The notes under the pieces were generated by a model, which was given only the letters and a program-made list of their open reading frames with translations, was not told the origin of the DNA and searched no databases. The translations under genes and the position numbers were made by a program. This document shows, in pieces, positions 16,905 through 58,475 of a stretch of DNA of 63,468 nt; the first letter of the stretch is position 1, and each line of letters begins with the position of its first letter. Source of the stretch: Elusimicrobiaceae bacterium (lineage in GTDB: Bacteria > Elusimicrobiota > Elusimicrobia > Elusimicrobiales > Elusimicrobiaceae); NCBI GenBank assembly GCA_016283355.1, contig JAEEMS010000015.1:1-63468 (forward strand), in the 5' to 3' direction.

Positions 16905-16944
16905 TAGGTCCTTGGACCTAAATCTCAATAGGTCTTTGGACCCT
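16905..16944 (+). promoter_or_regulatory. Two phased inverted repeats (GGTCC-type operators)
   Basis: TAGGTCCTTGGACCTA (16905-16920) has perfect 7-bp arms around a TT spacer. A second copy, TAGGTCTTTGGACCCT (16929-16944), begins exactly 24 bp later. The candidate -10 (TATGCT, 16967-16972) starts 23 bp after the second repeat, which centres that repeat near -42. The same arrangement is present before the gene at 57621. It is most simply read as binding sites for a dimeric activator of the gene at 16995. Confidence 0.65.
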
Positions 16945-16994
16945 GGCAATTTACTTGTCTTTTCTATATGCTAATTATATAAGGGGGATATTTT

Positions 16995-18251
16995 ATGCTA
17001 AAAAAACGATTTTTACCAATTTCACTCCTTGCATTTTGTTTACTTACACAAACCAATGCATGGGCGATTTCAATACCGATGTTAGAACGCAAAGCAGCAA
17101 TCGCCCAAACCAATGAAAACACCATGCATGGTTTGCCCATCATCAACTGGCAAGAATTCAAAATGGTTAACGAAAAAACAAAGCAGGAAAACGAAACATT
17201 TGCCCCTTTGTATAATCAACTTTTGGATCTAATATCTGTAAAAAACGGGACATTTGCCGTATCTGCGTTGCAAGGAACACCCAAATACGCTTCTGTTATT
17301 GAAAACGCTAACTATATCTTCATAGGAGAGGATCACAATGAACCCGCCGTACAGCACGAGATTGAAGAAATTATTAGAGCCGTGAGACAGGCCAACCCCA
17401 ATAAAAAAATTTTACTGGCTAGCGAATTTGTAAGAACACCTGAACCGCTCACGAACCCGTTACGCCGGGCTGATTCCCCCGAAAGCCCTCTGCTTGATGA
17501 TTATTATAACACTTTCAAACTGGCTGACGAATTGGAGATAGATACATTGGCGTTAGATGACGAAATACTTGAATTCGTAGATCGGAAATTAATTAAAGTC
17601 GGGGACCGATATGTCCAAATTGACATAAATAATGATTCACAAACACCAACCGACATCTTAGCCATTGGCGCTGCGTTCAAAGCAGAAATCGACCAAGAAA
17701 AATCCAAGATTCTTCAAACTATTGAATTGCTCCATATGGTTAGGTGGCAAATTTATGCAAGCGATTGGGGCGTAAAACAACGCAATTATCAATGGGTAAA
17801 GAGAATTAGAGACGTAGAGCAGGAATATGATATTGTAATCATTTGGGCCGGTTCCGGTCACACTTCTAGAATGAAACCCTCTTCATTACCCTTTTTGCTA
17901 GCATCTTCCAACGCCGTTGAAATTAATTTTGATGTCATTAACTCACACAGGAACACAAAATCAGAAGATTTCTTCCGAAAGGCCTTCAAGGTACGAGAAG
18001 AACTTGGTCTCTGTTCGGATCGCAAAGTATATTCCAAGGATCATAAACACAAAGTTTTAGAAAGCGACCCAACCATTGATTCAAATAAAACGTACTATTT
18101 TCATATAGAGACCGATTATACAAATCCTAAATTGAACGCAGAATATAGTGAAAACGAAATAGCCCAAATAGAAGCTCTTAATGAAAGGATAAAAACGCTC
18201 ATCGGCCAAAAAGAAATGGCACCAAGCATTTATTCCATATATGTTGAGTAA
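16995..18251 (+). CDS. Secreted protein with ChaN/EreA/TIKI-like motifs
   Basis: A 418-residue exported protein with a signal peptide over residues 1-24 (NAWA). It is not a recognised named gene. A central segment contains IFIGEDHNEPAVQHEIEE, followed far downstream by VIIWAGSGHTSRM. This paired GExH...GxGH pattern is like ChaN and the erythromycin-esterase/TIKI group, where those residues form the active or ligand site. The C-terminal 130 residues are charged and unassigned. The ribosome site is AAGGGGG. Two GGTCC inverted repeats lie upstream. It faces the convergent mutL gene with a 13-bp gap. A periplasmic or secreted hydrolase, or a heme-binding protein, are both possible. Confidence 0.65.
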   Translation: MLKKRFLPISLLAFCLLTQTNAWAISIPMLERKAAIAQTNENTMHGLPIINWQEFKMVNEKTKQENETFAPLYNQLLDLISVKNGTFAVSALQGTPKYASVIENANYIFIGEDHNEPAVQHEIEEIIRAVRQANPNKKILLASEFVRTPEPLTNPLRRADSPESPLLDDYYNTFKLADELEIDTLALDDEILEFVDRKLIKVGDRYVQIDINNDSQTPTDILAIGAAFKAEIDQEKSKILQTIELLHMVRWQIYASDWGVKQRNYQWVKRIRDVEQEYDIVIIWAGSGHTSRMKPSSLPFLLASSNAVEINFDVINSHRNTKSEDFFRKAFKVREELGLCSDRKVYSKDHKHKVLESDPTIDSNKTYYFHIETDYTNPKLNAEYSENEIAQIEALNERIKTLIGQKEMAPSIYSIYVE

Positions 18252-57496: not shown

Positions 57497-57559
57497 TAGG
57501 CCTTTAGACCCAATTTTATATAGGTCCAAATAACCTGCCTTTATAGGCCAAAGGACCCT
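57497..57559 (+). promoter_or_regulatory. Three phased inverted repeats (GGTCC-type operators)
   Basis: Three imperfect 16-bp repeats, TAGGCCTTTAGACCCA (57497-57512), TAGGTCCAAATAACCT (57521-57536) and TAGGCCAAAGGACCCT (57544-57559), are spaced 24 and 23 bp apart. The last ends 22 bp before TATACT (57582-57587), a -10 without a usable -35. This places the repeat centres near -42, -65 and -89. The matching array before the gene at 16995 suggests a common activator. Confidence 0.65.
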
Positions 57560-57581: not shown

Positions 57582-57587
57582 TATACT
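57582..57587 (+). promoter_or_regulatory. -10 element of the secreted-protein gene at 57621
   Basis: TATACT with no recognisable -35; the operator repeat takes that place. The predicted start is about 57594, and AAGGAG precedes the ATG. Confidence 0.5.
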
Positions 57588-57620: not shown

Positions 57621-58475
57621 ATGAAAACAAAGAAAGTATTAACCGCATGTTTGGCACTTTTGTTAATGTCAAATGTGTCTTTTGCACAAATTAAACCACG
57701 CTATGAACAGGCAAAACGAGACAATACCTACGTTGACTCTGTAAAAGCAGCGGCAAAACTAGTTCTAATAAACAAGCAAACAAAAAAGCAAGGAAACACC
57801 CAAGACGAATATAGCAGAATCCTCCATCACATAAAGACATCGGAACAAGACCCAGCAGAAACAGGATTCGCTGCTGCAGCTGGTGCAGCAGTAACAGCGG
57901 GAGCAATCGCAGGCATGGTCAGCGACCCAGTCATAGTAGCAAGCTACACAGCAGAAAAGATCCTTGGTGTTACGCTTGCATCAACAGTCGTTATAGAAGC
58001 AACACTTGTATGTGCAGCAACTATTACGGTAATTGCAGGGAAAAAGTGGGTCTGTGATAAAATTAATTTTTCGGGGAAAGACAAGAGCGCAGAGAATAAA
58101 GAATATTCTGCTATCGCACAAGCTCTTGGTCAAAGTGAGATTTTCTCTAAATATCAAGTAATACTTACAGGCATACGTAAAAATCCCGACCCGAAAAAAG
58201 AATACGCAACCCCTCTGCACTTGGAAAAGACGGCTCTACAGAGGTTGGCCAAATTCTTACAAAACCCTCGCGACTACAAGGCCAAGTACGACAAGAATTT
58301 GCCGGAAAGAGATTATAGATTTTATTTCGACTTTCCTTCCGGTCATCCTGAGTTGGCAAACGAGCGGGTTTATGCAGAGGTAGACATTGACAGTAAAGTC
58401 ATTATCGTATCTAGCTCAAGCTATGGAGAGAAAAAAACTACAACAAAGCACAATATCAAAGCTAAAAAGAAATAA
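57621..58475 (+). CDS. Secreted protein with central hydrophobic hairpin, unknown function
   Basis: A 284-residue protein with a clean signal peptide (residues 1-22, SFA then Q). After a charged helical region there is a Gly/Ala-rich hydrophobic stretch (about 80-140) long enough for two helices with a short turn, then a basic domain of about 140 residues (YRFYFDFPSGHPELANERV, then a Lys-rich tail). No family was recognised. A hydrophobic hairpin in an exported protein recalls pore-forming or membrane-inserting proteins, but this is speculation. AAGGAG precedes the ATG; three GGTCC-type repeats lie upstream; a terminator follows. Codon choice looks different from the neighbouring nfo, which may mean transfer. 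Confidence 0.65.
   Translation: MKTKKVLTACLALLLMSNVSFAQIKPRYEQAKRDNTYVDSVKAAAKLVLINKQTKKQGNTQDEYSRILHHIKTSEQDPAETGFAAAAGAAVTAGAIAGMVSDPVIVASYTAEKILGVTLASTVVIEATLVCAATITVIAGKKWVCDKINFSGKDKSAENKEYSAIAQALGQSEIFSKYQVILTGIRKNPDPKKEYATPLHLEKTALQRLAKFLQNPRDYKAKYDKNLPERDYRFYFDFPSGHPELANERVYAEVDIDSKVIIVSSSSYGEKKTTTKHNIKAKKK

Follow-up and report, generated by a model that had tools for sequence, protein, structure and literature searches.

Tandem 16-bp boxes at the promoters of exported-protein genes and of a small RNA in the class Elusimicrobia

We analysed a 63,468-nt stretch of DNA from an Elusimicrobiaceae bacterium (GenBank assembly GCA_016283355.1, contig JAEEMS010000015.1, positions 1 to 63,468). 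This stretch, hereafter the window, forms contig C22 in a 1.40-Mb genome assembled into 29 contigs. The element under study is a 16-bp inverted repeat, here termed the box, which is found in tandem ahead of the gene for a ChaN-like exported protein and recurs at a fixed distance from the -10 element of other promoters in the genome. The boxes delineate a new class-wide regulon, of a known mechanistic kind, with a small RNA as an unexpected member; a literature search for a regulon or small RNA of Elusimicrobia found nothing relevant. Each box would accommodate one protein dimer on a 7-2-7 inverted repeat, TRGGYCY-WW-RGACCYA. We consider it probable that the tandem boxes are sites for a dimeric activator of the NarL/LuxR (GerE-domain) response-regulator type, most likely the protein designated RR2 below, which would drive the exported-protein regulon. 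The interpretation given in an earlier note on this DNA, a dimeric activator controlling secreted proteins, is mostly supported; to it are added here the 7-2-7 architecture, a candidate regulator, conservation throughout the class, a partial -35 element and the small RNA.

As had been proposed in that note, this genome and its relatives were searched for the box pattern, the reversed pattern serving as control. In this genome the exact sequence TAGGYCYWWRGACCYW gives 24 matches and its reversal none; a strict composite pattern (box, 21-23 bp, TANNNT) gives 39 matches against 0 controls, and a loose form of the composite 45 against 3. Site statistics, as well as the gene counts reported below, were drawn from stretches around the matches (about 220 kb, including the window). 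A TAnnnT hexamer lies at offset 22-24 after the proximal box at 28 of 39 sites, compared to roughly 7% expected from the other offsets at the same 39 sites (p ~1e-23). Upstream dyads occur only at offsets of 22-25, 47-48 and 71-72 bp, forming a ladder of approximately 24 bp. Alignment of 36 proximal sites yields TAGGTCYAAAGACCCT(T/G)G, in which GG, C, G, CCC and T are the positions of high information; the -10 element follows at 22-23 bp, and another box lies some 23-24 bp further upstream. The box pattern is not a product of chance. Random positions in the genome would have spoken against a regulatory role; instead, the boxes stand at a fixed distance from the -10 element and in front of exported-protein genes.

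The promoter of the ChaN-like gene illustrates this arrangement (Table 1). The two 16-bp repeats have the sequences and coordinates first ascribed to them, their starts are 24 bp apart, and TATGCT does begin after a 22-bp gap. Transcription is expected to start at about 16979. The original description of this promoter as a weak -10 with no -35 was nearly right on the latter point but incomplete, as a degenerate -35 sequence (TGGCAA), matching TTGACA at three of six positions, begins with the last base, T, of the proximal box. A second array, already recognised as the same design some 40 kb away before another exported-protein gene, comprises three boxes in steps of 24 and then 23 bp, with the same gap to the -10 element.

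Table 1. Features of the two box arrays in the window and of the box-driven small RNA. Coordinates are those of the window unless a contig or locus is named.
Feature	Position	Strand	Remarks
Distal box, TAGGTCCTTGGACCTA	16905..16920	+	perfect 16-bp palindrome TAGGTCC-TT-GGACCTA; zero mismatches, both strands; dyad centre ~-66
Proximal box, TAGGTCTTTGGACCCT	16929..16944	+	dyad centre ~-42.5; oriented ...GACCCT form that adjoins the -10 genome-wide
Degenerate -35, TGGCAA	16944..16949	+	first T is last base of proximal box; 17-bp spacer to -10
-10 element, TATGCT	16967..16972	+	22-bp gap after proximal box
Target gene, 418-aa exported protein	16995..18251	+	ATG at 16995; signal peptide MLKKRFLPISLLAFCLLTQTNAWA; ChaN/TIKI/EreA-superfamily-like
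Most distal (third) box of second array, TAGGCCTTTAGACCCA	57497..57512	+	
Middle box, TAGGTCCAAATAACCT	57521..57536	+	right half degenerate
Proximal box of second array, TAGGCCAAAGGACCCT	57544..57559	+	
-10 element of second promoter, TATACT	57582..57587	+	22 bp past proximal box
Target gene of second array, 284-aa exported protein	57621..58475	+	MKTKKVLTACLALLLMSNVSFA...; no Pfam match
Small RNA, ~80 nt	L007:1552-1632 = G000:C5, about 17838-17918		box-driven promoter; no prior record

T-T/G-G is enriched after GACCC genome-wide, and in some distant relatives a full TTGACA is found at the box end (GGCC..GGCCCTTGACA). In the sister family (G051, G085, G117), several boxes lead directly into such a full -35 element (GGCCCTTGACA). 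These sequences suggest that decay of the -35 in the gut lineage accompanied a growing dependence on the activator.

The product of the first target gene is a distant protein of the ChaN/TIKI/EreA superfamily. The ChaN/TIKI label that it had received is valid at that level only, and a closer assignment does not stand: the protein scores 19.7 bits against Pfam PF04187, under the cut-off of 27.7, and a Foldseek search with its predicted structure (predicted local distance difference test, pLDDT, 82) returns HopBA1 and Campylobacter ChaN among the matches with probability 1.0 and TM-scores below 0.5. Tandem paralogues of this protein are encoded at G000:C18:10387-13209 (L035, L134), the first gene having a box promoter of its own at C18:10142.

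The examined stretches contain 37 composite promoters, for 27 of which a downstream gene start was recognised automatically. A simple rule finds a signal peptide in 26 of these 27 genes, bearing out the notion of a secreted-protein regulon; that of the remaining gene was identified by eye (MKKILAQILIFSLLFNMCVPAFA). Some of the 10 promoters lacking an automatic gene call also lead to signal-peptide starts on inspection by eye (for example, C29:1985 and C4:117558). In the small and local comparison set provided by the window, 20 of 47 genes have a signal peptide under lenient scoring (Fisher p ~1.5e-6). When 20 target proteins were scanned against Pfam, 16 had no family match, three were ankyrin-repeat proteins and one was a 5'-nucleotidase. 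The three exported ankyrin-repeat members map to L027:3400-5362 and L032:3-1451, and two of them are transcribed divergently from one intergenic region with one box each. Altogether, the box design seems to turn on exported proteins together with a single small RNA. The box constitutes a sequence tag that groups co-regulated exported proteins throughout a class of bacteria from gut and groundwater and, since 16 of the 20 scanned targets match no Pfam family, it brings together surface genes that are otherwise unreadable.

Within the genus, the strict composite pattern occurs 3 to 39 times per genome (548 matches in 30 genomes, 0 controls). Beyond the genus, there are 70 matches (2 controls) in 13 genomes from the family's other genera, 42 (0 controls) in 14 sister-family genomes and 78 (1 control) in 14 genomes from other families of the class, as compared to a single one among approximately 79 genomes of the phylum's other classes. 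When 84,980 species genomes were scanned independently for a similar pattern, the matches listed came almost exclusively from Elusimicrobi- records. The box element is restricted to the class Elusimicrobia. Of the matches with a called gene in G071 (a sister genus) and in the sister family, those retaining TRGG...GACCCT or GGCCCT are mostly followed by a signal-peptide gene. Conservation upstream of orthologues, on which the earlier note had made its interpretation depend, is seen with ChaN-like homologues in four genomes (G063, G036, G018 and G062), where a box lies 65-75 bp before the start codon, and in all aligned copies of the small-RNA locus described below; no box was found with several more distant ChaN-like homologues that were examined.

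The box at C5:17787 is followed by no gene. About 80 nt downstream of it end in a terminator-like hairpin (z = -5.4), and this segment corresponds to the small RNA in Table 1. At E <= 0.001, 50 of 61 genus genomes have a match to the locus; in a few, the match is to nothing but the box. The box is present in 32 of 32 aligned copies, preceded at about 24 bp by a second half-box, and orthologous promoters keep the box while spacers drift. All ten pairs of the hairpin are kept in the 32 sequences, both partners having changed in four of the pairs, and the loop, CCCAAACCC, is nearly invariant. A model of the small RNA finds it in 39 of 45 genus genomes and in both g13 genomes; it is conserved in G071, where it lies near G071:C1:661884-661967, about 60 bp past the start of a composite box match, and in G114. 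Searches of Rfam detected only a tRNA above the gathering score at the small-RNA locus and only tRNAs in the window, and no family for the small RNA; the regulon yields a small-RNA family with no record in that database. Pairing of the loop, the 5' part or the tail with the leaders of 27 regulon genes was no better than that of shuffled sequences. Upstream of the small RNA, promoters such as L373 and L376 contain an inverted half-box, which is conserved, and a TATAAT-like sequence; both face the opposite way and may represent a divergent promoter.

PF00196 is matched above its cut-off in 41 of 41 genus genomes; of the GerE-domain response regulators that reach full scores, just two are widespread in the genus. 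One of them, RR2 (G000:C2:17550-18234), has an orthologue in 117 of the 121 genomes of the order, the four genomes without it being 66-93% complete. RR2 sequences share 83-94% identity in the genus and, for the most part, 64-73% in the sister family; the recognition helix, KT[VI]KN, is almost invariant and resembles those of GerE and DevR. The RR2 gene follows a dCache-HAMP-HisKA sensor kinase gene and a REC-HisKA gene and precedes a TadE gene, in the same order in G071, whose RR2 orthologue is encoded at G071:C1:1292616-1293284. These genes belong to a conserved operon-like run (L100:545-7114, in G000:C2) that comprises an exported protein, the dCache-HAMP kinase, REC-HisKA, RR2 and a TadE-like protein and has no GGTC box upstream. 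On balance, we favour RR2 as the activator that reads the boxes. Because RR2 lies downstream of the sensor kinase gene, the regulon would answer an extracytoplasmic signal.

We envisage that the dCache kinase senses a signal outside the cytoplasm, leading to phosphorylation of RR2, dimers of which would then occupy positions -42.5, -66 and, at some promoters, -90. Steps of 23-24 bp amount to a little over two helical turns, and neighbouring dimers would therefore lie on similar, non-identical faces of the DNA. The proximal dimer, overlapping the poor -35 by one base, would contact and recruit RNA polymerase and in this way compensate for the poor -35. As a result, the regulon would be switched on, with its one conserved small RNA and its roughly 40 promoters per genome, almost all of which serve exported proteins of unknown function. 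The positions of the dyad centres (about -42.5, then about -66 and about -90) fit a class-II-type activator, in line with the initial suggestion of a dimeric activator near -42 and -66.

Some points weigh against this scheme. Activation, as opposed to repression, is read from geometry alone. There is no box within the 10-kb neighbourhoods of the RR2 or RR1 operons (RR1 being the second widespread regulator), hence no autoregulation that would tie either gene to the boxes; autoregulation of RR2 or of RR1 was rejected on this ground. The RR2 helix is unchanged in genus g12, where boxes are few, and the inventory of the genome's DNA-binding proteins covered the Crp and GerE families. The RR2 helix varies too little for its co-variation with the box to be informative. 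The one clear departure, a single case, is in G095 (another genus of the family, L196), which has INTVKN for KTVKN and no composite boxes, a possible natural loss of both the RR2 helix form and the boxes.

Other proteins could in principle read the boxes. RR1 (G000:C28:69267-69918) is likewise a GerE-domain response regulator, is present in nearly all family members searched, and adjoins the gene for a HisKA_3 kinase, the usual partner of NarL-family regulators. It is, however, less conserved than RR2 (65-83% versus 83-94% identity within the genus) and several sister-family genomes keep boxes without having it: no RR1 orthologue was found in G117, G107, G102 and G058, where the best hit (32-33%) is RR2 itself, and these four genomes show 68 matches to the composite pattern against 9 controls. 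We thus regard binding by RR1 as unlikely. A dimeric activator of some other family, such as the CRP/FNR or TetR type, acting from the same class-II position, also seems unlikely, if marginally less so. The sequence AGGTC-N4-GACCT is readable as a 5-4-5 dyad, similar to an FNR site and at a similar distance to the -10; yet Crp-type helix-turn-helix matches are weak, pass the family cut-off in one genome only and, for the genus-wide protein, correspond to LexA in the two genomes inspected. The CRP/FNR family was rejected as the regulator on this ground.

That the distance to the -10 varies so little, and that the right half together with TTG is the part conserved best, might be taken to indicate that the element, rather than being an activator site, is a promoter whose GACCCTTG-like -35 is read by an alternative sigma factor. 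We consider this very improbable: both halves of the dyad are conserved, the upstream half-box being kept in the small-RNA promoters; the second and third boxes, at 23-24-bp steps, are too far upstream for sigma contacts; the -10 is of ordinary sigma-70 form, and in some relatives the same box precedes the full consensus TTGACA. Palindromic, intergenic and present in many copies, the boxes could also be mistaken for a dispersed repetitive element, be it mobile or of the repetitive extragenic palindrome (REP) or bacterial interspersed mosaic element (BIME) kind. Such an origin can practically be dismissed in view of the fixed phase to the -10, the single orientation relative to the gene, the specificity for exported-protein genes and the retention of boxes at orthologous positions in diverged genomes while spacers drift. 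Binding of an activator, with RR2 as the candidate, is the reading that we retain.

A broader view, which we put forward tentatively and hold to be somewhat short of an even chance, is that Elusimicrobia possess one ancient, class-specific circuit in which a single response regulator and tandem 7-2-7 boxes govern tens of mostly uncharacterised exported proteins and a dedicated small RNA, the one with the CCCAAACCC loop. If so, a single-regulator circuit would do the job performed elsewhere by sigma-E or sigma-54 networks. The box model makes a prediction that can be tested in cultivated Elusimicrobium minutum, which belongs to the same phylum.

TAGGTCC-TT-GGACCTA at 16905-16920 is built like the 7-2-7 sites of the NarL family (two inverted heptamers, a 2-bp gap, 16 bp in all). 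The NarL site TACCCCT-AA-AGGGGTA, or TACCCCTAAAGGGGTA, has been described as such (PMC4549865). The resemblance to NarL/NarP of Escherichia coli extends to the TA ends and to the CT-AA-AG centre of variants like TAGGTCT-AA-AGACCTA, as well as to the place of the 7-2-7 site upstream of the napF start; on the other hand, GG and CC are exchanged in the half-site, and the boxes here form a tandem 23-24-bp array serving an exported-protein regulon.

DevR binds cooperatively to closely packed boxes, of which the one nearest the start overlaps the -35 (PMC3029386). Packed boxes, overlap with the -35 and one response regulator for a dispersed regulon are features that the system described here is predicted to share with DevR/DosR of Mycobacterium tuberculosis: the proximal box overlaps a TTG-like -35 by one base, 17-18 bp from the -10, and additional boxes lie upstream at 22-25, 47-48 and 71-72 bp. 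The RR2 helix KTVKN has base-contacting K/K/N residue types, presumably equivalent to K179, K182 and N183 of DevR. These three DevR residues contact bases (PMC4082495). The DevR/DosR system differs in belonging to another phylum and in governing dormancy genes in place of exported proteins, and the predicted sensor here is a dCache-HAMP kinase. The box core, GG[TC]C..G[AG]CC, departs from the DevR core, GGGAC..GTCCC, and the system would therefore work like DevR/DosR without being a member of it. Among solved structures, the DNA-binding domain closest to that of RR2 is that of GerE (1fse), the spore-coat regulator of Bacillus subtilis, followed by VraR, with DevR further down the list. The GerE half-site, TRGGY, matches the TAGGY and TGGGY variants of the boxes; GerE, however, has no receiver domain and acts in sporulation. 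Finally, the sigma-E regulon of Escherichia coli is envelope-directed and includes small RNAs, MicA and RybB. The Elusimicrobia set is likewise envelope-directed and includes a small RNA, here one without Rfam match or known target, but is marked by putative activator boxes where the other depends on a sigma factor.
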